This document shows, one piece after another, positions 3,625 to 18,756 of a stretch of 64,000 bases of DNA; positions within the stretch are counted from its first letter, which is position 1, and each line of letters begins with the position of its first letter. Made by a program: the position numbers and the translations under genes. The stretch spans positions 4,216,001-4,280,000 of the forward strand of contig NZ_CP015600.1 in assembly GCF_001647715.1 (NCBI RefSeq), in the 5' to 3' direction. Below the pieces are notes generated by a model. That model made no database searches. It was given only the letters and a program-made list of their open reading frames with translations, and was not told the origin of the DNA. Source of the DNA: Pseudomonas antarctica. Its GTDB lineage: Bacteria; Pseudomonadota; Gammaproteobacteria; Pseudomonadales; Pseudomonadaceae.

Positions 3625-3811
3625 GGATGCACGCCCAGGCTGATGGGCAGCGACGCAGGCTCGCAAGTGGGGCGCCGACGGACTTCGGTTGATCGGCTCG
3701 GTTGAACCTGACACTTCACACCCAACCCGGAGATCAGCACCGGGCATCTGCATCACCCATTCAATAGGTGGCCACCGCCTTCCCAGTGAGCGAACAACAG
3801 GAGATACGGCC

Positions 3812-3820
3812 ATGAAGTAG
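3812..3820 (+). other. Possible two-codon minigene (Met-Lys-stop)
   Basis: ATG AAG TAG is preceded by AGGAG at the normal eight-base spacing. Lambda carries comparable two-codon bar minigenes, whose translation sequesters tRNA. It could equally be the intact start of a decayed gene. It lies in the gene-poor stretch 3449-4129. Confidence 0.25.
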
Positions 3821-4129
3821 ATCAACGATTCATCCGCGTGGCGTAGCAAGCCTGAAGGCTTCGCCCAACACCCTAACAGGCAGCGGACAGCAGGGCCGAC
3901 GATGTCACCGCGCATCAGCCAGGGAGCTGGCAGGCCCAACCAAAACGAAGACGAACACCGCAGGCGAGTCCGAGGGCATAGCTGGCCAGACTCGACACAT
4001 CCCGGGCAGTGCCGGGCGCCTGCACCCTTCCCCACCTCTACCCGTCAGCACTCCTCCCCCGCGCCCATCGGCAAACAGCGGGAGGAATGAGTGTTGACGA
4101 ATACAGGTGAACCAAAAGAGGAATTAGCG

Positions 4130-4381
4130 ATGAAAGCTTTAAATCGCATCCGAGTATCGACGTACATCATGGGCTACGAGTCCGGATTCGAAGACTTCAC
4201 GGTCGAGGAATTCCGCTACTGCCTGGGCATCTTCAAATCCGATCAACACCGCACCGCAGGCGACTTCACGCCGCTGTGTGAACTGTACGAGCGCGGCCCC
4301 GAATCCGAAAACGACTACATCCCGAACTACGGGAGCTACGTCACTAACCTTGTTCAAGGCTGGTCCGATCTGCCCGCCTAA
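4130..4381 (+). CDS. Small phage protein, unknown
   Basis: This 83-residue acidic protein begins MKALNRIRVSTYIMGYESGF and contains EEFRYCLGIFKSDQH. The ATG at 4130 has an AGAGGAATT ribosome site. It opens a run of small early genes, each with its own strong ribosome site. I recognise no domain. Confidence 0.65.
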   Translation: MKALNRIRVSTYIMGYESGFEDFTVEEFRYCLGIFKSDQHRTAGDFTPLCELYERGPESENDYIPNYGSYVTNLVQGWSDLPA

Positions 4382-4409
4382 CCGGGTGAACCAACGAATG
4401 GAGAGAGTC

Positions 4410-4769
4410 ATGAGTGAGCAGTACATCGTGATCAGCCTTAAGCGCACCCATCGGCGGCACAAAGCAATCACCCTTTGGCGGCCAGATGACAAGGGCTACT
4501 GCTGGACGCTCGACAGGGCTGGCCGATACGAAGAGCCGCAAGTGCTTGAGCATCTTGGCTACTACAACAGTGGCTGCTCGAACATAGCCGTGCCGTTAGC
4601 ACTCGTCCAGCGCTTGGCGAGAGAGGTTGAGTACGACACCAAAGAATTTGGCGACTGCCTTGCGAACAATGCAGCAACTTGGAAGCAGCTTCTCGCAGCT
4701 GTGATCCGACAGACCGAATACCAATCGAAGCCCGAATATCGCGGCGCTCGATACCCGAAAGCCGCCTAA
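4410..4769 (+). CDS. Small phage protein, unknown
   Basis: This 119-residue protein starts MSEQYIVISLKRTHRRHK. The ATG at 4410 has GGAGAG upstream; an ATG at 4398 is in frame but has a poorer ribosome site. The sequence LWRPDDKGYCWTLDRAGRYE resembles short phage-encoded early proteins of pseudomonads, but I cannot assign a function. Confidence 0.65.
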   Translation: MSEQYIVISLKRTHRRHKAITLWRPDDKGYCWTLDRAGRYEEPQVLEHLGYYNSGCSNIAVPLALVQRLAREVEYDTKEFGDCLANNAATWKQLLAAVIRQTEYQSKPEYRGARYPKAA

Positions 4770-4790
4770 CCCCAAACACTGGAGGTCGCC

Positions 4791-5033
4791 ATGAGCGATT
4801 GGATCAGGGTTGAGGACATGCTCCCGGAGAACAACACCCACGTACTGGTTTCGTGTGTTGGTGGGAATGTCGATATTTCCTTCTTCTGCCTGAACCGTGA
4901 GTTTCTGCGTGGCGCCGGCAATAGCTATTCGAGAAGTAGCCTGGGCAAGCCATCAGGATTCTTCCAGATCAGCCACCAGTACGGCTACCAAATCACCCAC
5001 TGGCAGCCACGGCCAGCACCAGCAACCGAATAA
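4791..5033 (+). CDS. DUF551-domain phage protein
   Basis: This 80-residue protein matches the DUF551 pattern at both ends: SDWIRVEDMLPENNTHVLV at the start and ITHWQPRPAPA at the end. DUF551 proteins are common small phage and prophage proteins of unknown function. The ATG follows CTGGAGG. It belongs to the early small-gene run. Confidence 0.8.
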   Translation: MSDWIRVEDMLPENNTHVLVSCVGGNVDISFFCLNREFLRGAGNSYSRSSLGKPSGFFQISHQYGYQITHWQPRPAPATE

Positions 5034-5052
5034 CGCCACCCTGGAGGCGACC

Positions 5053-5319
5053 ATGCACCCTGACATCCAAATGCGCCGCGACATCGTCGACGGCCTGCAT
5101 CAGCGTTCCCGTCTCGCCACCATTGAGCTGTATCGGCTAATTGGTCGGCCTGAGCCAGTGGTCACCTTCCGGATGATGGTGAAGCCGGCGGGCCGCGACT
5201 TCTTCCATGTGGTGGATAGCCAGACCAATAAGGTCATGGGGTTCCGTCGCAACCACAACGAAGCCTGCGCCCTCGCCCGGAGCCTGGAGACTCGCCATGC
5301 CAACCAGCTACGCGGATAG
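5053..5319 (+). CDS. Small phage protein, unknown
   Basis: This 88-residue protein begins MHPDIQMRRDIVDGLHQRS. The ATG at 5053 is preceded by CTGGAGG. A segment FFHVVDSQTNKVMGFRRNH looks like a short beta meander. No family recognised. Its 3' end overlaps the next gene by 23 bases. Confidence 0.65.
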   Translation: MHPDIQMRRDIVDGLHQRSRLATIELYRLIGRPEPVVTFRMMVKPAGRDFFHVVDSQTNKVMGFRRNHNEACALARSLETRHANQLRG

Positions 5320-5809: not shown

Positions 5810-6943
5810 ATGTCCACAAATCCTAAAAATGCACCCGCACAGGAATCGCTCGAAATGAGTGAAGCCGAAGATGCGCAAAAGGCTGTATCCCCTGCGGTGG
5901 CGGTTACCGACATCGCTGAATATCGGCCCCACGAAGAACAAATCGTTCGCCTGGAAACAACCTACGCGAAGCTGGTCGTGGATTGCTCAACGAGTGAGGG
6001 CCTGGCAAATGCGAAAGAGGTTCGCGTAGATATACGCGACGTGCGCTATGCCCTGGCAAACACCACCAAGACGGCGTTGGTTCCATATCAGCAAAAGGTC
6101 AAAGAGGCTCAGGCCCGCGTCAACCAGGTCAAGGAATTCGGTGAAACCCTCAGGGCTCGCGTCCTCGTACTTGAAGAACCAATTGACGAAGCGATCAAGG
6201 CCGAGGAGAAGCGCGTCGCCGACGCTAAGGCTGAGAAAGAGCGCCTGGAGCAGGAGCGAATCGAAGCCATCCGGGCAAAAATTACCCGTTTCAGTTCTGT
6301 CGCTGCCGCGTACGCAAGCCGCAGCGCTGCCGACGTCGCCGGAATTCTGCAAGGCGTTAAGGAGTCGGTGATCCTGCCCGAAGAATATGGCGAATTTGAA
6401 GCTGAAGGCACCATCGCTCGAGACAACGCAATTGAGCAGCTGGAAGCGCTACACAAGGCTGCCATTGATCGAGAGGAAGCTGCTGCCAAGTTGCTGGCTC
6501 AGCAGAAAGAACTGGACGAGCTGCACGAGAAGCAACGCATCGCCGACGCTGAGGCTGAAGAACTGCGTAAGCAGCGCGCCGAGGAAGACCGTCTGCGGTT
6601 AAAGAAGCAGCAGGACGAACTGGACCAGCAGCGTCGCGACATGGAAGCCCAGCAACGCCAACAGCGCGAGCGCGACGCCCAATATCAGCGTGACCAGGAA
6701 GAGCTGGCCCGTCTGCGCGCCCAAGCTGCCGCGCCGGTCCCGGTCCCGGTCATTGCTACGGCTCCTGCCTCGATCGAAGCGAAGGCCGAGGTCGCACCAG
6801 TCAGCTCACAGGCGACCGGCGCTGAACAGGACGATTTGACTACGACCGCGCCGGCAGTTGACGACATTGTCGAGGTTGTAGCGCTGGGCTTCGACGTACC
6901 TCTCGACACCGCCCGCGCTTGGCTACGCGCCATCCGCTTCTAA
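5810..6943 (+). CDS. Coiled-coil phage recombination-cluster protein
   Basis: This 377-residue protein is dominated by a coiled coil (about residues 40-310) rich in E, K, Q and R, followed by a proline/alanine linker and a short C-terminal helical tail (DVPLDTARAWLRAIRF). It lies directly before recT and the exonuclease gene. Proteins of this kind, some annotated DUF1351, often sit at this position in phage recombination modules, so a structural or accessory role there is plausible but inferred. The ATG at 5810 is supported by GCGAGG upstream and the start of the charged region. Confidence 0.7.
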   Translation: MSTNPKNAPAQESLEMSEAEDAQKAVSPAVAVTDIAEYRPHEEQIVRLETTYAKLVVDCSTSEGLANAKEVRVDIRDVRYALANTTKTALVPYQQKVKEAQARVNQVKEFGETLRARVLVLEEPIDEAIKAEEKRVADAKAEKERLEQERIEAIRAKITRFSSVAAAYASRSAADVAGILQGVKESVILPEEYGEFEAEGTIARDNAIEQLEALHKAAIDREEAAAKLLAQQKELDELHEKQRIADAEAEELRKQRAEEDRLRLKKQQDELDQQRRDMEAQQRQQRERDAQYQRDQEELARLRAQAAAPVPVPVIATAPASIEAKAEVAPVSSQATGAEQDDLTTTAPAVDDIVEVVALGFDVPLDTARAWLRAIRF

Positions 6944-6996
6944 CCACCCTTTCCACCCGAAAGCCGACACATTCCTTGTCGGCCAGGGAGAGCGCA

Positions 6997-7986
6997 ATGA
7001 CCGAATCAGACACCCAAGCACAAACCGGCCTGGCGACATACCAAGATCCATCTCACAACGCCGCAGCGCTCATACTCGACCCGGGCACCATGAGGTCGAT
7101 GAGCGACCTGGCGATGATGATGTCGAAGGGTGTTACCACAGTGCCAAAACACCTGAAGGGCAATCAAGCCGACTGCATGGCTGTAGTACTGCAGGCCATG
7201 CAGTGGCAGATGAATCCATTCGCTGTCGCGCAGAAGACGTTCATCGTCAACGGTGGGGCATTGAGCTATGAGGCGCAGCTCGTTAATGCAGTGATCACCG
7301 CCAAGGCACCAGTCAAAGGTCGATTAAATTTTGAATGGTTCGGCGCTTGGGAAAACGTCATCGGGAAGATGCGCGAAGTCACCAGCAAAACGAAGAAGGA
7401 CGAGGACACCGGCGAGTTTAAAAAATACCGCGTTCCAGCCTGGAGTTTTGATGATGAGAAAGGACTCGGCATTAAAGTCTGGGCGACCTTCAAGGGCGAA
7501 GACGAGCCGCGGGTTTTGGAGCTTCTGCTTACGCAGGTTCGCACACGCAACTCCACACTTTGGGCGGAAGACCCGAAGCAACAGATCGCCTACTTGGTGA
7601 CAAAAAAATGGGCACGCCTTTTCTGCCCTGACGTGATCCTTGGTGTTTACACCCCCGACGAATTCGAGGATTCGTACGGTGGCGAGATCGACATCACCCC
7701 CGCCAAGCAGACTGCGAACACCGCTGCCGCGGCAGGTGTGTCGTTCGGGCCTAAATCTCCATCGCCTGACATCGACGGAGTATTTGCGGACCTTCTGTTC
7801 GTCGCGAAGCGCCAGGACATTGAAGCCTACGCTGCAGCTTGGGCGGGCCTCAAGCCGAAGCAGCGTGCGGCAATCGGTCTTGAATGCCACGAAGCACTCA
7901 AGAGCATGGCGGCGACCGTTGATGCTGACTTCACCGACATGAGCGGCTCCAACGCAGACCAACCCCATACAGAGGAGGCCGCGTAG
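6997..7986 (+). CDS. recT: RecT-family single-strand annealing protein
   Basis: This 329-residue protein fits RecT annealases. It has a conserved early region (residues 45-90) with VPKHLKGNQADCMAVVLQAM and NPFAVAQKTFIVNGGALSYE, and a later YLVTKKWARLFCPDVILGVY. RecT anneals complementary single strands during phage replication and recombination and works with a 5'-3' exonuclease, here the next gene. AGGGAG precedes the ATG at 6997. Its stop overlaps the exonuclease start as TAGTG, so the pair is translationally coupled. Confidence 0.92.
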   Translation: MTESDTQAQTGLATYQDPSHNAAALILDPGTMRSMSDLAMMMSKGVTTVPKHLKGNQADCMAVVLQAMQWQMNPFAVAQKTFIVNGGALSYEAQLVNAVITAKAPVKGRLNFEWFGAWENVIGKMREVTSKTKKDEDTGEFKKYRVPAWSFDDEKGLGIKVWATFKGEDEPRVLELLLTQVRTRNSTLWAEDPKQQIAYLVTKKWARLFCPDVILGVYTPDEFEDSYGGEIDITPAKQTANTAAAAGVSFGPKSPSPDIDGVFADLLFVAKRQDIEAYAAAWAGLKPKQRAAIGLECHEALKSMAATVDADFTDMSGSNADQPHTEEAA

Positions 7987-8648
7987 TGAGAACTGAGCTT
8001 CAGGGCACGGACAAGTGGCATGCGGACCGATCTGGCCGCGTGACAGCCAGCCGCTTTAAAGACGTGATGGCCTGGGGAAAGCCTGACAAAAATGGTAAGC
8101 GCGAGCCTATGGGGGCGCGCACCTCATACATGCGCGAGCTGTGCTTCGAACGGCTGGCAAAGAAGTCCAAGCACAACGTCAGCAGCGCCTCTATGAAGTG
8201 GGGCCACACCGAAGAACAAAAGGCGCAGGACGCCTACGAGATGTTGACCGGCAACATCGTCCTGCCGTCGGAGTTTATCGTTCACCCGAAGTACGACTGG
8301 CTCGGCTGCTCGCCAGACGGCCTGATCAACGATGACGGCGGCACTGAATCAAAGTGCCCTTTCAATGAAGCGATTCACGTCAGGACCTGGATCGAAGGTA
8401 TGCCCGAGGAACACATGCCGCAAGTCCAGGGCTGCATGTTCGTGACAGGGCGAAAATGGTGGGACTTCCTGTCGTTCGATTCGCGCCAGGATGAAGAGTG
8501 CCAGCTCTACATCGAGACGATTTACCGCGACGAAGACTACATCGCCAACCTGCACAAAGAGCTGGTTCAGTTCAACCTGGAACTCAATCGCATGGTTGAT
8601 GAGGTAGCAGACAAAGCCAGGGCGCAAGCCCATCGCCTAGGAGCCTGA
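7986..8648 (+). CDS. YqaJ/lambda-exonuclease-family nuclease
   Basis: This 220-residue protein has the YqaJ viral-recombinase pattern: RVTASRFKDVM at the N-terminus, MKWGHTEEQKAQDAYE, the metal-binding segment LGCSPDGLI, then TESKCPF, and a conserved MPQVQGCMFVTGRKWWDFLS. These are the D, E and K residues of the PD-(D/E)XK fold. It should resect double-strand ends to provide single strands for the adjacent RecT protein. It starts at GTG (7986-7988), overlapping the recT stop. Confidence 0.92.
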   Translation: MRTELQGTDKWHADRSGRVTASRFKDVMAWGKPDKNGKREPMGARTSYMRELCFERLAKKSKHNVSSASMKWGHTEEQKAQDAYEMLTGNIVLPSEFIVHPKYDWLGCSPDGLINDDGGTESKCPFNEAIHVRTWIEGMPEEHMPQVQGCMFVTGRKWWDFLSFDSRQDEECQLYIETIYRDEDYIANLHKELVQFNLELNRMVDEVADKARAQAHRLGA

Positions 8649-8650
8649 TC

Positions 8651-8893
8651 ATGATCAGCAACCTGAAATCAGACATCGAGTTTCGGCGCGAGAAAGCGCT
8701 GGAGCTTTCCAGTCAGGTCCGTCGGCACCTGGCCGCCGGCGGCAAGCTCACAATCGGCGAGAGCCCGGCGATCAATCCAGATCCGGCAAAGCGTTCGGAA
8801 TTCATCGACCCGACAACCATCCTCAAGCGCCGTAAGCCGCCCATCACCCGAGCCGAGCGTGAAGCGCTGCGCAAACTCGCGGAGGCTTTATGA
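8651..8893 (+). CDS. Small phage protein, unknown
   Basis: This 80-residue protein begins MISNLKSDIEFRREKALELS and ends with a basic helix (TRAEREALRKLAEAL). It follows the exonuclease gene by two bases and overlaps the next gene by ATGA. Its position suggests a recombination-cluster accessory; function unknown. Confidence 0.65.
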   Translation: MISNLKSDIEFRREKALELSSQVRRHLAAGGKLTIGESPAINPDPAKRSEFIDPTTILKRRKPPITRAEREALRKLAEAL

Positions 8894-9351
8894 GTAAGCG
8901 TAAACCCCACAACCTGCAGGCGCGCATTGCCCGGTCGTGCCGCTCGCTGCTGGCATCCAACCACGTAGCGGTGGTTAACATTGACCCCAGCGGCCGCCAG
9001 GGCATGATCAATTACAAATCGCTCAAAAATATTGCGCCGGGGAAGATCGGCCAGGCCGTCTGCGGCATTCCCCACCGCTGGACGATCTACCTGAGCGCGC
9101 TTTGCATCGACGCCCGCGGCGACCGCTACAGCAAGTCGGTGGAGGTGGCGCCCGAAGGCGTTTACCTCTCCGACCACTTGGAAGACGTGATCGAGCATTG
9201 CTACAAGAAGCTGCGCGACGAGGCCAATCAAAGCCAGATGGTGGCTTCAGGTTGGATTGCCATACCTGAAGCGATGTCGCTCGATGAGGCGCACGCCGCA
9301 CGGATCTTCGAAGCGGTCGGCGCCTGGAATCAGCAGAAGGTCGCGGCGTGA
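8890..9351 (+). CDS. Phage protein, unknown
   Basis: This 153-residue protein begins MSKRKPHNLQARIARSCRSL and has a central beta-rich part (WTIYLSALCIDARGDRYSKS) followed by a helical C-terminus. The start overlaps the previous stop. I do not recognise a domain. Its genomic place is between the exonuclease and the DGR. Confidence 0.65.
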   Translation: MSKRKPHNLQARIARSCRSLLASNHVAVVNIDPSGRQGMINYKSLKNIAPGKIGQAVCGIPHRWTIYLSALCIDARGDRYSKSVEVAPEGVYLSDHLEDVIEHCYKKLRDEANQSQMVASGWIAIPEAMSLDEAHAARIFEAVGAWNQQKVAA

Positions 9352-9432
9352 AGCGAATCAATAAACAGGTCAGCGCGAGACGCCGGCTAACCTGGCTCGC
9401 ACTGCCGGCCAGCGGAATAGAAGAGGTAGGCC

Positions 9433-9912
9433 ATGGCTGCCGAACAGAAGGATCGCACGGCCAAACTTGCCGAGAAACGGCAGGAACTGGGCGAGCAGGA
9501 ATTGCGGCACACGGTCCCGTACGGCACCCAGCTGATGCTTGCAGAGCTGATGCTCTGGCATGAGATTCGAGAAATTGGCGAGGCAGTACAACTTCTGGTG
9601 ATCAATGGCAAGGCCGAGGATCTACCGCCAGCGCCGCCGAAGGTCAAAGGGCCGTCCGACATCATCCGTCACTACTTCCGGCAGGGAATGCGTGACCGGC
9701 TTACAGCGCTCACCGCCGAGCTTGGCGAGACGAAAGACCGCGCCACCATCTGGCGACTGATCGCTCATGTCCACTCGCTTGGCGCCGAGAAGTCCGCGCC
9801 ACTCTTCGAAATTAAGCGCCACGGTTATGAGATAACCGAAAACGTGGCGCGCAAATTAAGACAAGCAGGGTTTGCCGAATCGCTCCAGATGAACGCCGAA
9901 GACGACGAATAA
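9433..9912 (+). CDS. Phage protein, unknown, helical
   Basis: This 159-residue protein is strongly charged and helical, starting MAAEQKDRTAKLAEKRQELG and containing HYFRQGMRDRLTALTAELGE and a possible winged-helix-like end (YEITENVARKLRQAGF). An AGAGGTAG lies upstream of the ATG. It immediately precedes the first DGR target gene. Function unknown. Confidence 0.65.
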   Translation: MAAEQKDRTAKLAEKRQELGEQELRHTVPYGTQLMLAELMLWHEIREIGEAVQLLVINGKAEDLPPAPPKVKGPSDIIRHYFRQGMRDRLTALTAELGETKDRATIWRLIAHVHSLGAEKSAPLFEIKRHGYEITENVARKLRQAGFAESLQMNAEDDE

Positions 9913-9969
9913 CCCACCCTACTCGCTGCATCCGGCCACCGGATGGCGGCGCCTGACTGAGGTAACCGC

Positions 9970-10581
9970 ATGAAAACCGAAATGATCACCCTGAAACACG
10001 GCGACGTGTCTATCAAGATGCCATCAAGTGCTCTGGCAAAACTGGCGATTGCCAGCTTTTTCGCCCAGGTGCTTCCGCCGGCGGCGAACGTTCAACCGGT
10101 AGCGCCTTCCACTATCCCGGAGATCGGCCAACCGTGGCCGGGCCAGGGCGGACTCAACGGCGGTTTCGTTCACGCCCGCGGTGAAGTGCCGGCGCACTAC
10201 CTGATCATCGCGGCCAAGGACGTTGGCGATCACAAGTGGGGCGGTCGTGGCGTTGAGGTCAAAGGACTGAGCAAGACTGACGGCTACACCAACACCCAGG
10301 TGCTGATCGGCAACGATGACGAGCGAAAGTACCCGGCGGCGGATGCCTGCGCCGAACACCAGGCCGATGGTCACCGCGACTTCTACCTGCCCGCCGCTGC
10401 CGAACTGTACCAGGGCTGGCTGAACTGTCCCAAGGTGTTCGCCCAGGACTGCTATTACTGGTCATCGTCGCAGCGCTCAGCCAACACCGCATTCGTCATG
10501 AACTTCGGTGGTGGCGGTCAGGACTTCGGCGGCAAGAGCGGCGAGCTCCGTGTCCGCCCCGTCCGCAGATTCTTTATTTAA
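9970..10581 (+). CDS. DGR target protein 1 (DUF1566/C-type-lectin-like)
   Basis: This 203-residue protein has no signal peptide. Its C-terminal domain follows the DUF1566 pattern: GHRDFYLPAAAELYQG, then YYWSSSQRSANTAF and a final ELRVRPVRRF. The last 35 residues are encoded by VR1 and match the template in every non-adenine position. In known DGRs such folds display variable residues on a stable C-type-lectin scaffold. The variable codons here correspond to AAC/AAT/GAT/GAC codons in the template. It is paralogous to the next gene (both have an IGQ...GGFV segment). The binding partner is unknown. Confidence 0.9.
   Translation: MKTEMITLKHGDVSIKMPSSALAKLAIASFFAQVLPPAANVQPVAPSTIPEIGQPWPGQGGLNGGFVHARGEVPAHYLIIAAKDVGDHKWGGRGVEVKGLSKTDGYTNTQVLIGNDDERKYPAADACAEHQADGHRDFYLPAAAELYQGWLNCPKVFAQDCYYWSSSQRSANTAFVMNFGGGGQDFGGKSGELRVRPVRRFFI
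10467..10572 (+). repeat. DGR variable repeat VR1
   Basis: This 106-base repeat aligns without gaps to the TR at 11869-11974. I count 16 mismatches, and all fall at adenines of the TR (to G, C or T). The 3' 30-odd bases, which lack template variation and would act as the IMH region, are identical to the TR. It forms the 3' end of target gene 1, in frame. Confidence 0.96.
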
Positions 10582-10614
10582 TCCTTCATCCATTCGTTCT
10601 TGATCCGGCACACC

Positions 10615-10635
10615 AGGGCGCACAGCGCCTTTTTT
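10615..10635 (+). terminator. Hairpin with T-run after VR1
   Basis: GGCGC-ACA-GCGCC, extended by G-T and A-T pairs, is followed by six T. It lies 43 bases past VR1 and before target gene 2. It could terminate transcription, or serve as the hairpin many DGRs need just downstream of VR. Antitermination from boxA would let transcripts pass. Confidence 0.6.
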
Positions 10636-10660
10636 GTTGCCTTCGAAAAGAGGAAGCACC

Positions 10661-11281
10661 ATGTCCGCAGTTGAGAAAGCAGCACCAGCAGTAACCACTC
10701 CGGCAATCGGCCAGTCCTACGGCGGCGGTTTCGTCACCGGCATCACCCACGACCCGGTAACTGGCAAGCGCTCCTTGCACATCACCGCCGGCGCAGCGCA
10801 TGAGTTGCTCGGCAAGTGGGGCGAGTACGGCGAGAAGATCGAAGGCGCCGATAGCTTCACCGACAGCCTGGCCAACACCCAAGCCATGGCAGCAGCAGGC
10901 AGTGATCTGGCAGCGAAGGTGCTAGCCCTGAACATCGAAGGCTTCACCGACTGGGCGATCCCGGCTCGCGATGTGCAGGAGCTGCAGTACCGCCACTTCA
11001 AGCCGACCACCGAAGAGAACTGGGAAAACTCGCGCAACGGTGACAACCCACATAGCGAGCCGGTGGGTCAGCTGTACAGTGCGGAAGGCCCGCTGCAAAC
11101 CGTGCACACCGCCTTCCAAGAAAGTGGCGCCGAAGCCTTCCGCGACACCTGGTACTGGTCGAGTTCGCAGCGCTCAGCCGACACCGCGTTCTTCATGGTC
11201 TTCGTTGATGGCGATCAGGGCTACGGCGGCAAGGTCAACGAGCGCCGTGTCCGCCCCGTCCGCAGTGAATTTATCGATTAA
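10661..11281 (+). CDS. DGR target protein 2 (DUF1566/C-type-lectin-like)
   Basis: This 206-residue paralogue of target 1 also lacks a signal peptide. It shows the DUF1566 signature GFTDWAIPARDVQELQ, then YWSSSQRSADTAFFMVF and RRVRPVR. VR2 encodes its C-terminal variable part. The residues at template-N or -D codons differ between the two targets, for example F, V, Y and G here, while the scaffold residues QRS, A, F and RVRPVR are kept. AGAGGAAG precedes the ATG at 10661. Two targets fed by one template imply parallel diversification. Confidence 0.9.
   Translation: MSAVEKAAPAVTTPAIGQSYGGGFVTGITHDPVTGKRSLHITAGAAHELLGKWGEYGEKIEGADSFTDSLANTQAMAAAGSDLAAKVLALNIEGFTDWAIPARDVQELQYRHFKPTTEENWENSRNGDNPHSEPVGQLYSAEGPLQTVHTAFQESGAEAFRDTWYWSSSQRSADTAFFMVFVDGDQGYGGKVNERRVRPVRSEFID
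11165..11265 (+). repeat. DGR variable repeat VR2
   Basis: This 101-base repeat aligns without gaps to the TR. I count 18 mismatches, 17 at TR adenines. The exception is a T-to-G change in the 3' invariant part (CTC in TR and VR1, CGC here). VR2 forms the end of target gene 2. Confidence 0.95.
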
Positions 11282-11295
11282 TTCGCTTATTTAAT

Positions 11296-11313
11296 CCGGC
11301 CGCGTGCGGCCGG
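11296..11313 (+). repeat. GC-rich perfect hairpin after VR2
   Basis: CCGGCCG-CGTG-CGGCCGG is a perfect seven-base stem with a four-base loop, 30 bases downstream of VR2. DGR target sites often have a hairpin or cruciform just after VR that helps retrohoming. There is no T-run, so a simple terminator is less likely. Confidence 0.65.
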
Positions 11314-11340
11314 TTGCTTTGCTTATGGAGCTGTACCGCA

Positions 11341-11697
11341 ATGGGAATGCACACCGATCTGTCGATCTACCGGGCGGCCATGGGTCTTTTGCACATGGCG
11401 ACCATCCTGACTAGAAATATCCCGCGAGACCTCAAACAATCGCTGGGTAAGCGAGTGATCGACGAATGCATCGAGGTTGTGATGCTGATCGCCCGTGCAA
11501 ACGCAACCCAGGACAAACGACCACACCTGACCTTGTTGGTCGAGAGGGTTCAAGTGGTCGAGTTCCTGATGCGCCTATTCAAGGACAGCCGATTCATCAG
11601 TGTCGAACAGCATGCTAAGGCGATAGAGGTAACAGCCTCCGTCGGCAAGCAGGCCAATGCCTGGAAACGCTCTACCCCAACCGCGCCCGCTACCTGA
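11341..11697 (+). CDS. avd: Avd-like DGR accessory protein (helical bundle)
   Basis: This 118-residue basic protein is almost entirely helical, with segments such as LSIYRAAMGLLHMATILTRN, RVIDECIEVVMLIARANA and VERVQVVEFLMRLFKDSRF. Size, helix pattern and place directly before the TR and RT match the pentameric four-helix-bundle Avd proteins, which bind the reverse transcriptase and template RNA and are needed for mutagenic cDNA synthesis. The ATG at 11341 has GGAG ten bases upstream. A role in template-primed synthesis is inferred from the family. Confidence 0.85.
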   Translation: MGMHTDLSIYRAAMGLLHMATILTRNIPRDLKQSLGKRVIDECIEVVMLIARANATQDKRPHLTLLVERVQVVEFLMRLFKDSRFISVEQHAKAIEVTASVGKQANAWKRSTPTAPAT

Positions 11698-11868
11698 AGG
11701 TTACGGCTTTCTGGTCTGTGCGAATTGAATCTGGTCGTGCCGCTGACCTGATAGGTCACCGCCATGCGCACAAGGGATACCGCCGGTCTAAAGCGTCCGC
11801 GTAGGTCCTGCGCAGTTTCCTTGCTGATCGGCTATGCCTTCGGCTCGGCGACGTAGATAGCACGATAG

Positions 11869-11974
11869 GTCGCAGCGCTCAGCCAACAACGCATTCAACA
11901 TGAACTTCGATGATGGCAATCAGAACAACAACGACAAGAACAACGAGCTCCGTGTCCGCCCCGTCCGCAGATTC
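11869..11974 (+). repeat. DGR template repeat TR
   Basis: This is a 106-base A-rich copy of the VRs in which the variable codons read AAC, AAT, GAT or GAC, for example in the run CAGAACAACAACGACAAG. It lies between avd and the RT core, after a 171-base untranslated spacer (11698-11868) that probably forms the 5' part of the template RNA. Differences from both VRs are confined to its adenines, apart from one base in VR2. It overlaps the first codons of the longest RT reading frame. Confidence 0.96.
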
Positions 11975-13070
11975 GACTTTGGGCCCCTACCCGTTTCAGG
12001 ATCTGGTCCAGGCCTATTACGACTGCCGACGCACCAAGCGCAACAGCGACAGTGCGCTGGCTTTCGAGATCGACCTGGAGCGGAACCTGATCCAACTACA
12101 CGACGACCTGGTAGCCGGCACATACCGGCCAGGCCGGTCTATTTGTTTCGTGGTCACCCGACCGAAAGCCCGGGAAGTATGGGCGGCAGCCTTTCGGGAC
12201 CGCGTCGTCCACCACCTCATGTACAACCATGTGGCACCGCGCTTCTACGCCTGCTTCATAGCGGACAGTTGCGCATGCATTCCAGGGCGCGGCACGCTGT
12301 ACGCGGCCAAGCGTCTTGAATCGAAGATCCGGAGCGCCAGCGAGAACTGGTCGAAGCCCTGCTGGTATCTAAAGTTGGATTTGGCCAATTTCTTTGTCGC
12401 CATCGACAAGGCGGTGCTTCGCAAGCAACTAGAAGCGAGGATCACCGAACGATGGTGGCTGGCCCTGGCCACGCAGATCCTGATGCATGACCCGCGTGAG
12501 GATTACGAGACGCGCAGCCCGGCGCACCTGTTCAACCGGGTACCACAGCACAAGCGTCTGGTAGCGCAGCCCGCGCGCCTCGGCCTGCCGATCGGCAACC
12601 TGTCATCGCAGTTCTTCGCCAACGTCTACCTCGACGCCCTGGACCAGTTCGCCAAGCACACGCTGGGCGCCAAGCACTACATCCGCTACGTCGATGACTT
12701 CGTGTTCCTGCATGAATCGCCGCAGCAGCTAAACCAGTGGCTGGCAGAGGTCGAAGCGTTCCTGCCAAGGCTCGGCGCCAAGCTGAACCCCACAAAGACG
12801 ATCCTGCAACCCGTGGATCGTGGCGTGGACTTCGTTGGCCACGTCATCAAGCCATGGCGACGCACCACCCGCAAGCGATCCCTGGCCCAGGCACTGAAGC
12901 GCACCGCCGCGGCGCCAGCCGAGGATCTGCGCCAGACAGCCAACAGCTATTTCGGGCTACTCAGCCAGGCCAGCCACAGTCATAGCGACCGAGCAGCACT
13001 TGCTCGCGTCGTGCTGAAGCGCGGCAACATCGTCAACGCGGCGATGACCAAAACCTTCCAGAAGAAGTAA
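11910..13070 (+). CDS. DGR-type reverse transcriptase
   Basis: This is a compact RT (386 residues from the first ATG). It carries KLDLANFF near 155-162, PIGNLSSQFFANVYLDALD near 227-245, which is the DGR-type motif in place of the retron QG..SP, and the catalytic YVDDF at 260-264. It copies TR RNA into cDNA with errors at adenines and, with Avd, replaces VR sequence. The ATG at 11910 lies inside the TR, so translation may really begin at GTG 11952 or TTG 11979, just before the conserved PYPFQDLVQAYYDC region. No maturase, RNaseH or intron features are seen. Confidence 0.93.
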   Translation: MMAIRTTTTRTTSSVSAPSADSTLGPYPFQDLVQAYYDCRRTKRNSDSALAFEIDLERNLIQLHDDLVAGTYRPGRSICFVVTRPKAREVWAAAFRDRVVHHLMYNHVAPRFYACFIADSCACIPGRGTLYAAKRLESKIRSASENWSKPCWYLKLDLANFFVAIDKAVLRKQLEARITERWWLALATQILMHDPREDYETRSPAHLFNRVPQHKRLVAQPARLGLPIGNLSSQFFANVYLDALDQFAKHTLGAKHYIRYVDDFVFLHESPQQLNQWLAEVEAFLPRLGAKLNPTKTILQPVDRGVDFVGHVIKPWRRTTRKRSLAQALKRTAAAPAEDLRQTANSYFGLLSQASHSHSDRAALARVVLKRGNIVNAAMTKTFQKK

Positions 13071-13114
13071 CTCCCCCACTGCACCGCCCGGGCGTGGCCC
13101 GGCAAGGACTCCCC

Positions 13115-13786
13115 ATGCCTACAGAAAACCAAATCACCGCGCCGCTGCAGGTTGAGCGCTCCACAGTCACGAAGCTGGTGATCACCGGTGCGCCACGCCT
13201 AGACCCGATCACCGTGTTCCTCGAGGACTTCGGCCGGCGCGACTGCCCGATTGAGGCGAACCCGAACTACCAGACCGCTCAGGGCAAGATCACCATCAAC
13301 TGCTGGGACAACAGCTGGAACGCTTACTGGGGCGGTATGGGCCCGCGCACCGTCGCGGAGTTTGTCGCCGACTGCGGCTGGGACTACGTCCTGAATTGCT
13401 TGGATCGCGGCATCAGTTCCACGGTGTTCAGTGGTGACGCGCTTCACGCCCTCGCCAAGAAGTGCATCGTCCAGCGCCGGCGGCAACAGACCGGCCGCCA
13501 CGATTGGGAGTTGGGCGAGCTGAGCAAAGAGGAAGCCCGCGAGCTCTGGCAGGACATCGACGTTCTGCGCAGCATCGAGAGTCCGAGTGAATGCTGGCAT
13601 CAAAGCGCGCTGCTGACCGAGTTGTTCGGCGATGAGTGGCACTACCCGCTAGACGGAAAGGCCGTCGAAGAGAACCACAAATTCACGTACCTGCGGCGGG
13701 TTGTCGAGGCCGTCCAAGCAGCGCTTCGTCAAGAACAGCAGCCGGTTGTGAATGCCCATGATCTGGTATCGATGGAGGCTGTATGA
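13115..13786 (+). CDS. Phage protein, unknown
   Basis: This 223-residue protein begins MPTENQITAPLQVERSTVTK. It has a beta-rich front half with GKITINCWDNSWNAYWGGMG and a helical back half. AAGGA lies upstream of the ATG at 13115. Similar proteins occur in pseudomonad prophage early regions, but I know no function. It overlaps the next gene by ATGA and follows the RT by 44 bases, so it could be co-transcribed with the DGR. Confidence 0.65.
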   Translation: MPTENQITAPLQVERSTVTKLVITGAPRLDPITVFLEDFGRRDCPIEANPNYQTAQGKITINCWDNSWNAYWGGMGPRTVAEFVADCGWDYVLNCLDRGISSTVFSGDALHALAKKCIVQRRRQQTGRHDWELGELSKEEARELWQDIDVLRSIESPSECWHQSALLTELFGDEWHYPLDGKAVEENHKFTYLRRVVEAVQAALRQEQQPVVNAHDLVSMEAV

Positions 13787-14421
13787 CCGAAGTTATGCGC
13801 TACGACCTGGACAGGGACACTGACGAAATATGCGCGGACATGGTGCCGGCCGACGGTGGGCGGTACGTGGAGTCGACCGACTTCGACCGGGTCACAGCCG
13901 AGCGTGACGGCCTGCAACTGCTGCTCAACCAGCGCGACGAACAGGTCGAAAGCCTGGAGCAGCAGCGCGAGGCGGAATTGCGCAACGGGCAGGATATGCA
14001 ACAGCGCCTGACCGCAGCGGATGAGCGCTGGGACGAGTTGGTCAGTGCGGTACGGTCAATCAACCGCAGCCCGCACTATATGGTCAAAGCGATTGACGAC
14101 GACCAACCGCAGTACAGGCAGCGCAAGGAATGGATTGATTGGGTGCTTGAGCTTTGCGATGCAGCGCCTACATCCACTGAGCGATCCAACAAGGACTACG
14201 CCATCGAGCACGCCGAGTACATGGCCAAGTCAGCCGATGACGTGCTGGCGAAGTTCCAGGCATACGGCCTGGCTCTTCTGGCCGTCGATGAAGGCGGCGA
14301 CGACGGTGAAGGTGAGCTGTTCGAGAATATCGACTCCGCCCGCGGCGACCTACAGGAAGCTCTCGTAGATCTGCGCGGCATGGTTTACGAGTTCCGCAAG
14401 CGCAGTGCAAAAACCCGGTAG
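13783..14421 (+). CDS. Coiled-coil phage early protein, unknown
   Basis: This 212-residue acidic protein has a front coiled coil (DFDRVTAERDGLQLLLNQRD and following, about residues 25-85), resembling the Ea22/Ead-like early proteins that share an ESTDFDRVTAERD-type start. The rest is helical. Its start overlaps the preceding stop. Function unknown. Confidence 0.65.
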   Translation: MTEVMRYDLDRDTDEICADMVPADGGRYVESTDFDRVTAERDGLQLLLNQRDEQVESLEQQREAELRNGQDMQQRLTAADERWDELVSAVRSINRSPHYMVKAIDDDQPQYRQRKEWIDWVLELCDAAPTSTERSNKDYAIEHAEYMAKSADDVLAKFQAYGLALLAVDEGGDDGEGELFENIDSARGDLQEALVDLRGMVYEFRKRSAKTR

Positions 14422-14500
14422 GAGAACATCCGTACTCCACCCGCAAAACATGTAGCCCCTCCCCCTTCAAAGTCAGCCGCTATAGCGGCAAGGAACCCCC

Positions 14501-17141: not shown

Positions 17142-17543
17142 ATGGCCAACACAAAGTTAGCGCCGGTCCTAGAGACCGCGCCCCGCTTCATCCGGGCGAT
17201 GCACGCCCCCGCTTACCTTGGCATGTGCCGGGAAGAATTCAAGAATACCGTCCGTCCACACGTCCGCGAATTCCCCATTGGAAAACAGGGCGTTGGCTTT
17301 GATCGACACGAACTGGACGCGTGGGCAGACGCCTACATCGAAGCCAAGGCGATTGAAAAGAAGGCTGATCAGGACAACAATCCGCCCCGCAGTGGGCGCC
17401 AAGGAGCAAAACAATGGCGCGAAAAACAATGTCGGGCCTCTATCAGAGGAACGGGATTTGGCACATCGACAAAGTCGTCCGAGGTAGCCGACTTCAGGAA
17501 AGCACTGGAGCAAGCGAAAGGGAAGAAGCCGAGCAGTACCTGA
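17142..17543 (+). CDS. Putative excisionase/AlpA-like DNA-binding protein
   Basis: This 133-residue protein has an early winged-helix-like stretch, APAYLGMCREEFKNTVRPHV followed by FDRHELDAWADAYIE, typical of AlpA/excisionase-like proteins encoded just before integrases. Its 3' end overlaps the integrase gene by 130 bases, an unusually long overlap. The basic C-terminal tail may therefore be longer than in relatives. It likely steers integrase toward excision; this is inferred from position and fold. Confidence 0.65.
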   Translation: MANTKLAPVLETAPRFIRAMHAPAYLGMCREEFKNTVRPHVREFPIGKQGVGFDRHELDAWADAYIEAKAIEKKADQDNNPPRSGRQGAKQWREKQCRASIRGTGFGTSTKSSEVADFRKALEQAKGKKPSST

Positions 17544-18610
17544 TTCATCGGTTGGAAAAGCTGCGGCAAGAAAAGATTTATGGCGTGCGCCAGGTGCGAA
17601 CCTGGCGTGAGGCTGCCACCCGGTTCCTCGTGGAGTTCAAAGACCAGGCATCCATCGGCCTTTCCGCTTCTCACATTGAGCAGCTCGACCCGTACATCGG
17701 CGATCTGCCCATAACGCACATCGATGATGGGAGCCTGGCCACGTTCATTCGTGAGCGGCAGCGGCCGAGCAAGACGGGCAATGGTAGGGTCAAACCAGGC
17801 GTATCGAACAGGACGGTCAACATAGCCCTGCAGCGAGTCGTCAGGATCTTGAACCTGTGTAACCGCAAGTGGCGTGATGCTGAAAAGCGGCCGTGGCTGG
17901 AGAGCGTGCCGATGATCTCGATGCTTGAGGAGAAGAAGTCGAGCCGTAAACCCTACCCGATGTCCTGGGAAGAGCAGGCCCTATTGTTCCCTGAGCTGCC
18001 CGACCACCTTTTGAGGATGGCCCTCTATAAGGTAAACACGGGTTGCAGGGAGCAGGAGGTGTGCAAGTTGCGGTGGGATTGGGAAATACGGGTGCCGGAC
18101 CTGAACACCAGCGTATTTCTGATACCTGCCGGATTCGGCGGGCGGAGTGAAAAGGCAGGGGTAAAGAACGGCGATGAGCGCCTAGTGATCCTTAACAACG
18201 TGGCGATGTCCATCATCGATGGCCAGCGCGGTCTGCATCGAGACCTGGTGTTCCCGTACGGGCAGCCAGATCAGTTCGGGCCAACGGCAATGCATCGCAT
18301 GAATGACTCGGCCTGGAAGAAAGCCAGGGTGCGCGCAGCGGATAAATGGGAGAAGGCCCACCAATCGCCAGCGCACCCCGGATTTAGGTCGATCAGGATT
18401 CACGACTTGAAGCACACCTTTGGCAGAAGGCTACGTGCAGCAAACGTGACAGAGGAAGATCGGAAAGCGTTGTTGGGGCATAAGAACGGCAGCATAACGA
18501 GCCACTATTCTACCCCGGAGCTGCAGCACTTGATTGAGGCTGCGAACAAAGTGTCGGCAACTGACTCTCGCGGGCCAGCACTGACAATCTTGAGGAGGAA
18601 GTTGGGATGA
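17414..18610 (+). CDS. int: Phage integrase (tyrosine recombinase)
   Basis: This 398-residue tyrosine recombinase has an N-terminal arm-binding part, a core-binding SAM-like domain (about residues 60-160) and a catalytic domain. Visible catalytic motifs are the first Arg in TGCREQEVCKLRW, HDLKHTFGRRL, LLGHKN and the nucleophile Tyr in SHYSTPEL. The gene ends next to the tRNA-Pro 3' end, so that tRNA is its likely attachment site. The start lies inside the preceding gene; ATG 17414 follows an AAGGAGCA motif. Confidence 0.95.
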   Translation: MARKTMSGLYQRNGIWHIDKVVRGSRLQESTGASEREEAEQYLIHRLEKLRQEKIYGVRQVRTWREAATRFLVEFKDQASIGLSASHIEQLDPYIGDLPITHIDDGSLATFIRERQRPSKTGNGRVKPGVSNRTVNIALQRVVRILNLCNRKWRDAEKRPWLESVPMISMLEEKKSSRKPYPMSWEEQALLFPELPDHLLRMALYKVNTGCREQEVCKLRWDWEIRVPDLNTSVFLIPAGFGGRSEKAGVKNGDERLVILNNVAMSIIDGQRGLHRDLVFPYGQPDQFGPTAMHRMNDSAWKKARVRAADKWEKAHQSPAHPGFRSIRIHDLKHTFGRRLRAANVTEEDRKALLGHKNGSITSHYSTPELQHLIEAANKVSATDSRGPALTILRRKLG

Positions 18611-18679: not shown

Positions 18680-18756
18680 TGGTCGGGACGGAGTGATTCG
18701 AACACTCGACCCCTAGCACCCCATGCTAGTGCGCTACCGGACTGCGCTACGCCCCG
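18680..18756 (-). tRNA. tRNA-Pro (anticodon GGG)
   Basis: This 77-base cloverleaf has acceptor stem CGGGGCG/CGTCCCG, anticodon stem CTAGC/GCTAG with loop ATGGGGT (anticodon GGG), T-loop TTCGAAT and an encoded CCA. It is the likely attachment site of the prophage; its 3' end faces the integrase gene. Confidence 0.96.

Follow-up and report, generated by a model that had tools for sequence, protein, structure and literature searches.

We describe a complete diversity-generating retroelement (DGR) at positions 9970-13070 of a stretch of 64,000 nucleotides from Pseudomonas antarctica (NZ_CP015600.1, positions 4,216,001 to 4,280,000; hereafter the window, with positions counted from its first letter). 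We consider it likely that the element belongs to a temperate Pseudomonas phage and is active as a DGR, and that its template repeat (TR) is clamped for complementary DNA (cDNA) synthesis by a structured RNA of the Rfam family RT-15, lying on the 5' side of the TR, through a long-range helix that we call P0. Adenine-directed change, recent activity, the position of RT-15 beside the TR and the pairing in P0 all emerge from comparison of related sequences. The RNA architecture is the new part, no description of it having been found among the literature matches listed. An earlier reading of the letters of the window (the original prediction) had proposed an undescribed DGR with two targets in a prophage. 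Its DGR, prophage setting, adenine-directed change and type of reverse transcriptase (RT) were borne out, whereas the rarity of two targets and the novelty of the cassette as such were not; the present analysis adds to it a second copy of the DGR elsewhere in the same genome and the structured RNA that separates avd from the TR.

Composition of the cassette

The gene order is target gene 1, ending in variable repeat 1 (VR1), target gene 2, ending in VR2, avd (accessory variability determinant), TR and RT, with phage genes around the cassette. The features, all on the forward strand, are:

9970-10581, +, target gene 1, 203 amino acids, Lcl_C/DUF1566-like C-terminus, phrog_4245
10469-10568, +, VR1
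10617-10629, +, hairpin GGCGC-ACA-GCGCC with a T run, 3' of VR1, candidate terminator or DGR stem-loop
10661-11281, +, target gene 2, 206 amino acids, paralogue of target 1
11166-11265, +, VR2
11296-11313, +, hairpin CCGGCCG-CGTG-CGGCCGG, 30 nucleotides 3' of VR2
11341-11697, +, avd, PF22296 (bAvd), phrog_3206
11681-11872, +, RT-15 structured RNA (Rfam RF03018), overlapping the 3' end of avd and ending at the TR
11725-11733, +, P0 5' strand, UUGAAUCUG (from covariation)
11734, +, unpaired G separating P0 from the RT-15 closing helix (Rfam structure line), possibly the priming nucleotide
11735-11740 with 11860-11865, +, RT-15 closing helix (Rfam structure line)
11871-11970, +, TR, 100 nucleotides, 32 of them A
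11968-11976, +, P0 3' strand, CAGAUUCGA, at the TR 3' junction (from covariation)
11910-13070, +, DGR RT, conserved part from 11985, with ATG at 11910/11913 inside the TR

A single TR (11871-11970) serves two targets, as had been proposed, and the earlier counts of adenine-directed differences were reproduced. All 16 differences between TR and VR1 fall on TR adenines (hypergeometric P 4.5e-10, given 32 A in 100), as do 17 of the 18 between TR and VR2 (P 1.3e-9), the exception being TR T11949, which is G in VR2; when the TR window is shifted to 11872-11972, 18 of 20 VR2 differences are at A.

The product of avd matches PF22296 with 49.7 bits (cut-off 40) and phrog_3206, 'Avd protein of DGR', and scores 50.5 bits with the NCBIfam Avd model, under its cut-off of 80. 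Assignment of the RT to the DGR type also agrees with the original prediction: its best solved-structure match, 8ub7 (E 2e-35), which we take to be the RT of Bordetella phage BPP-1, lies ahead of a group II maturase (5e-9). The protein matches PF00078 (68 bits) and phrog_1423, carries the motif IGNLSSQ, presumably typical of DGRs, and has brt of BPP-1 among its tblastn matches. Among NCBIfam models that of a group II intron RT scores best, but its 95.5 bits fall far short of the cut-off of 300, and the retron_St85 model gave 44.2 bits against a cut-off of 235. In both targets the VR sits C-terminally, where the match to PF07603 (Lcl_C) is 27.9 bits for target 1 and 28.7 for target 2, both below the curated cut-off of 34.9. 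Target 2 has 936 homologous proteins; PF07603 is annotated for many target homologues, and the names seen were hypothetical, DUF1566, Lcl or C-type lectin fold.

The GGCGC/GCGCC stem after VR1 is present in 12 of 12 loci among those listed, and a hairpin at the same offset from VR2 in 10 of 12, two having the compensated stem CCGCCCG/CGGGCGG. A DNA hairpin after the VRs with the role it has in BPP-1 found no clear support: hairpins are present, but stems of at least 8 bp are rare (4% and 2%; 1% and 0% in shuffles).

Recent rewriting of the variable repeats

A second prophage lies in the same genome on the opposite strand (G000:C1, about 1,482,566-1,487,136, minus; loci L007/L008), and window positions 9909-14479 align to it without gaps. 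Between 9909 and 14244 the two prophages differ at 40 positions, 34 of which are among the 64 VR sites facing TR adenines; the remaining 6, two of them in VR2, are spread over 4,272 other positions, and the TRs are identical. The common block of 4.3 kb, which includes the whole DGR, is 99.9% identical outside the VRs, and the rest of the two prophages is a mosaic of pieces with 97-99% identity (window about 3761-5293), stretches of 86-92% (about 8804-9343, and others beyond the left edge of the window) and unmatched stretches in between. Because the block is nearly identical, most of its differences lie at VR sites facing TR adenines and its flanks are mosaic, we conclude that it is of recent common origin and that its VRs have since been rewritten. 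The changes alter 11 residues of target 1 and 13 of target 2, all in the VR. The IMG/VR locus L081 shows the same difference counts as the second prophage and is probably the same element. No further VRs, for example in tail genes, were found in the genome at E 0.001, the six sites detected being 2 TR and 4 VR.

We extended the comparison with an RT protein search, which gave 66 loci in GTDB genomes and more in phages and IMG/VR contigs; at most 80 IMG/VR loci were taken per scan, so that the family size is a lower bound. An RT identity of at least 55% defined a family of 286 loci, some of them copies of one element, with both RNA anchors (described below) in 276. Several further pairs, in which RT and TR are identical, have VRs that differ almost exclusively at A sites (A/non-A changes 19/0 for L091/L012, 31/1 for L148/L147, 14/0 for L205/L204 and 36/1 for L307/L320), and when all 44 pairs compared are taken together, changes are seen at 287 of 2,365 A sites and at 21 of 5,235 non-A sites. 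VRs of near-identical copies, the two resident prophages among them, differ at TR-A sites, so that the first result named as refuting the original prediction, VRs identical across isolates with ordinary drift, did not arise; nor did the second, an RT of the retron or intron clades, judged by the structure matches given above. On these comparisons we regard the DGR as recently active.

Across the family, 6,082 of 13,688 A sites (44%; TR positions 16-100) had changed, as had 46 of 13,951 C, 64 of 9,907 G and 63 of 5,804 T sites. A VR was accepted if a 100-nucleotide segment, its A-facing positions set aside, matched the TR at 80% or more; this criterion caps the non-A change that can be read, but the observed 0.3-1.1% is far under that ceiling. 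For a codon analysis we used 111 unique VRs from 60 loci with TRs like that of the window. Adenines of Gln, Lys and Glu codons change in at most 4% of cases, ten AAC/AAT codons vary, and in most of the latter Tyr, Gly and Leu exceed mutational expectation. Since the former are quiet while the AAC/AAT codons vary, these data suggest that VR variants pass selection for a working fold and binding.

Could the element instead be a degenerate, inactive DGR with drifted VRs? Most near-identical pairs of public loci have identical VRs, which speaks for such decay and against our reading, although some of these pairs are perhaps one element found twice. The concentration of 34 of 40 inter-prophage differences at VR sites facing TR adenines and the suggested selection for a working fold argue the other way, and we give decay hardly any credence.

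Number of targets in the family

The original prediction held that two targets are less usual than one. Among the 255 family loci with 2 kb of upstream sequence, 198 have two VRs, 22 three, 32 one and 3 none, so that two targets are usual in the RT-15 DGR family. Three loci (L032, L035 and L038) have extra VRs 3-5.6 kb upstream of the RT, which points to a third target in some cassettes.

A structured RNA on the 5' side of the template repeat

The window holds a full-length match to the Rfam covariance model of RT-15, scoring 178.7 bits against a gathering threshold of 82. Here avd and TR are 173 nucleotides apart, the 173 nucleotides being RT-15, and TR and RT 14 nucleotides; the family medians over 260 loci are 170 and 14 nucleotides, with avd taken as the nearest upstream open reading frame. 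The variable pairs of the RT-15 hairpins covary beyond shuffles (about 130 sequences). RT-15 exceeded the cut-off in 22 of 298 Pseudomonas genomes, with 26 matches, and the same 22 genomes hold 26 RTs of at least 68% identity, one beside each RT-15. The RT search covered these 22 genomes and 3 with sub-threshold RT-15 scores; no family RT was found in the latter, and five further weak matches (25-35%) were other RTs. The record of phage Cruim01 itself annotates an RT-15 RNA.

RT-15 and RT-16 (RF03019) reportedly stem from Weinberg 2017, where prior notice of a link to DGRs is possible; among the literature matches listed, none tied either RNA to DGRs. The one paper among them to name RF03019 (PMC11701678) has it as an entry in a table of structures that were revised. 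Neither the names nor the descriptions seen in Rfam make a link to DGRs, and in the structure lines shown there the P0 strand has no partner, unlike the arrangement found here, in which RT-15 and RT-16 both adjoin a TR and appear to pair with its 3' junction.

Among the 276 anchored loci, 250 have an RT frame that extends into the TR in one and the same register, across nine listed spacer lengths, and 25 use another register; the TR contains an in-frame RT ATG in 200 of the 276. Given this frame and ATG, the TR probably doubles, in another frame, as coding sequence for the RT N-terminus. One possible downstream RT start, TTG at 11979-11981, is lost in the second prophage (G11981T).

These features bear on whether this might be an ordinary DGR of the BPP-1 type, in which the spacer 3' of the TR would lie inside the RT coding sequence and RT-15 would be a leader controlling RT translation. 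As the conserved part of the RT starts 14 nucleotides from the TR and the RT frame runs into the TR, RNA signals could indeed overlap coding sequence. Synonymous conservation is not clearly raised in the first 50 RT codons (rank 72 of 312 windows), which speaks against such a spacer, but the power of this test is limited, and a spacer inside the RT gene keeps some probability against our own reading. A search of window positions 9000-14500 at E up to 1 found RT-15 and no Phage_DGR RNA (RF03022), while BPP-1, as positive control, scores 104.7 bits for the latter; and pairing tracks the TR end also in RT-16 loci (see below), where the RT start lies farther off. We judge a BPP-1-type arrangement very unlikely.

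Long-range pairing with the TR 3' junction

The stretch of RT-15 before ...GGUCG, unpaired in Rfam, complements the TR 3' junction, as we spotted by eye in named genomes. We tested this helix, P0, with anchors (CTGG... and GTCCGCAG) that leave out the tested positions, using a discovery set of 31 unique combinations (44 loci) and a held-out set of 112 combinations that occur in viral contigs alone (232 loci). Position 7 is paired in 31 of 31 discovery combinations (14.9 expected) and in 103 of 112 held-out combinations (50.2 expected; reached by 0 of 2,000 shuffles), the held-out pairs being UA (47), GC (29), CG (18), UG (5) and AU (4). Held-out positions 8 and 9 are paired in 94 (77 expected) and 73 (54.6 expected) combinations, each reached by 0 of 2,000 shuffles, and positions 4 and 5 hardly vary. 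Pairing in register is 0.82 in the held-out set, compared with at most 0.51 in slid registers.

Because shuffles ignore relatedness, we also traced changes along a tree of 246 RT sequences. Each of the 16 double changes at position 7 replaces one pair by another, and over positions 7-9 pairing is kept in 35 of 51 (slid registers 1/22, 5/27, 8/41, 6/39 and 5/44); single changes that break a pair number 5, 7 and 21 at positions 7, 8 and 9. TR/VR identity is about 1.0 and drops to 0.65-0.69 directly past GTCCGCAG, where P0 begins; at the other end, the homology sets in a few bases at most from the RT-15 closing helix. A counterpart of G11734 is found in all 276 anchored loci (CTGG in 275, CCGG in 1), but this G belongs to the anchor pattern.

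Several observations count against P0 or narrow it. The helix is short (6-9 bp), and neither it nor the RT-15 closing helix was recovered by RNAalifold unaided. Held-out combinations are paired at position 6 in only 68 of 112 cases (33 are A-C; 61.8 expected; 7 of 2,000 shuffles), position 10 in 51 of 112 (43.3 expected; 48 of 2,000), and positions 11-13 gave no pairing signal. Ten of the 286 loci, some at contig ends, lack an anchor, some anchored loci pair poorly (L245/L246, for instance), and the loci are related, some sharing a contig or genome. Weighing both sides, we regard the RT-15 P0 helix as well supported by the covariation, and suggest that its role may be that of a clamp fixing the cDNA template.

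P0 might instead be a regulatory long-range helix that hides the RT start or acts in attenuation and has no part in cDNA priming. The in-frame ATG within the TR in 200 of 276 loci means that P0 and translation could compete. Nevertheless, P0 begins 2-3 nucleotides inside the end of TR/VR homology in RT-15 loci, and the corresponding helix mostly 2 nucleotides inside it in RT-16 loci; by this placement P0 tracks the end of the template and not the start codon, and a purely regulatory role seems unlikely to us.

RT-16 loci

RT-16 was present in 8 of 13 distant DGR-type loci of one scan and in 4 of 12 of another, with the TR starting at most 4 nucleotides from the RT-16 end in the 9 loci where a TR was found; of 371 genomes in the phylum of the archaeal locus L061, 103 have RT-16 above the cut-off. 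For pairing we considered 55 loci, of which 25 were usable (17 had no ACA[CT]G anchor and 13 were truncated) and 22 distinct. TR ends were taken from VR matches, in place of fixed GGAA anchors, which had given 21 rows with several loci misplaced. The TR begins at most 6 nucleotides from the RT-16 end in 18 of the 22 distinct loci, and the TR 3' junction forms a helix, in most cases of 6-12 bp, with the ...GGGCUA stretch that is unpaired in RT-16. The helix score is 9.78 for native and 6.44 for swapped combinations (25 rows, 3 repeats; 0 of 5,000 permutations), and pairing is 0.68 in register and at most 0.50 slid. On the other side, 6 of the 25 rows fail to beat the mean swap, and the single-position signal is weak: of 12 positions, compared over 18 loci, 4 have fewer than 50 of 2,000 shuffles that reach the observed pairing. 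The RT-16 case thus seems to resemble RT-15 in layout and pairing, on fewer loci and with less certainty.

Other Rfam RNAs of the RT-n series occur near DGR-like RTs, namely RT-18 (L074, 7943-8013) and RT-14 (L060, 2583-2734), and possibly form a further set of DGR RNAs. RT-14 was rejected as a third such RNA, no TR having been found beside it in L060.

Prophage context and targets

The cassette is flanked on one side by recombination genes and on the other by a methyltransferase, an integrase and a tRNA-Pro, and from these neighbours we read it as lying in the early region of a lambda-like prophage. Features around it are:

1563-2291, CI-type repressor
6919-7983, RecT-like annealing protein
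7986-8645, exonuclease
17414-18607, integrase
18680-18756, tRNA-Pro

The RecT-like protein and exonuclease (6919-8645), slightly upstream of the DGR, might aid cDNA integration; they are not constant in relatives. A fixed association of the DGR with phage recombination genes was dropped, query matches being found in just 8 of 43 flanks.

Among the loci listed, targets are mostly 120-206 amino acids long, and no N-terminal signal peptide was seen by eye; in phages Cruim01, Haboob and Medea1 the matching region sits among early genes. Together these two points suggest that the targets may act inside the cell, early in phage growth, a view against which stands a hydrophobic stretch at about residues 20-40 of target 1. 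Most viral targets of DGR clades 1, 4 and 6 have a tail role, as reported in PMC8144416.

Pseudomonas phage Medea1 (L080) has two DUF1566 target homologues in its early region (7514-8822); the family RT was not found in its 16.8-kb stretch, and these targets may have lost their DGR. Target homologues with 35-46% identity also occur in the Pseudomonas phages PMG1, phi_D3, PAN70 and vB_Pae_U7/U9.

Proposed mechanism and comparison with known systems

In the mechanism that we favour, RT and Avd would copy the TR RNA of 100 nucleotides with errors at adenines, and the cDNA would replace the matching ends of the two paralogous target genes. RT-15 lies 5' of the TR, with 11725-11733 paired to 11968-11976 as P0; as P0 and the closing helix are one nucleotide apart they could stack, holding the TR between them as a loop of about 102 nucleotides. 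P0 would be where reverse transcription begins and the closing helix where it halts, in keeping with both observed ends of TR/VR homology, and P0 might position the primer, perhaps the 2'-OH of G11734.

The cassette is like that of BPP-1 in its RT, Avd, adenine-directed TR/VR change, order of target, avd, TR and RT, and phage host. The layout of the RNA is the mirror image: in BPP-1, avd (annotated Bbp7) and TR are 0 nucleotides apart, TR and brt are separated by 144 nucleotides and the spacer is the Rfam Phage_DGR RNA, unlike the stretch of 173 nucleotides with its structured element 5' of the TR and the 14 nucleotides 3' of it here. The annotated BPP-1 cassette has one target, a tail protein, and ours two small paralogues in an early region. 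Retrons have a structured RNA 5' of the copied template and a long-range helix that closes it; the present element is analogous in both respects, but unlike retrons has TR/VR and Avd and an RT below the retron model cut-off. In BPP-1 the structured spacer 3' of the TR takes part in cDNA priming, according to PMC12875486.

The cassette as such is not undescribed, contrary to the original prediction, since phage DGRs with DUF1566 targets, including two-target ones, appear in PMC8143477. Among these, the DGRs of Bacteroides uniformis phages (Bacuni) share two targets of the DUF1566/C-type-lectin-like kind with the window, and the authors presume that Bacuni VR2 affects host tropism; the Bacuni_F1 RT is about 35% identical to ours. 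The Legionella DGR likewise has a DUF1566/C-type-lectin-like target.

A broader proposal, which we put forward tentatively and at somewhat less than even chances, is that a second widespread design of DGR RNA may exist, with RT-15 in proteobacterial phages and RT-16 in archaea, in which the 5' element would prime across the clamp in a retron-like manner and the RT-15 clamp would serve intracellular early-gene targets and not tails. The present analysis provides a concrete, testable RNA model of how a DGR without a 3' spacer may start cDNA synthesis, and indicates which junction and which nucleotide deserve attention first. It connects RT-15 and RT-16, two Rfam families that have no assigned role, with mutagenic reverse transcription, both in phages and in archaea, and the two resident prophages offer a ready natural record of recent DGR activity within one genome. 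If the model is true, retron-like and DGR-like priming would be closer than thought.

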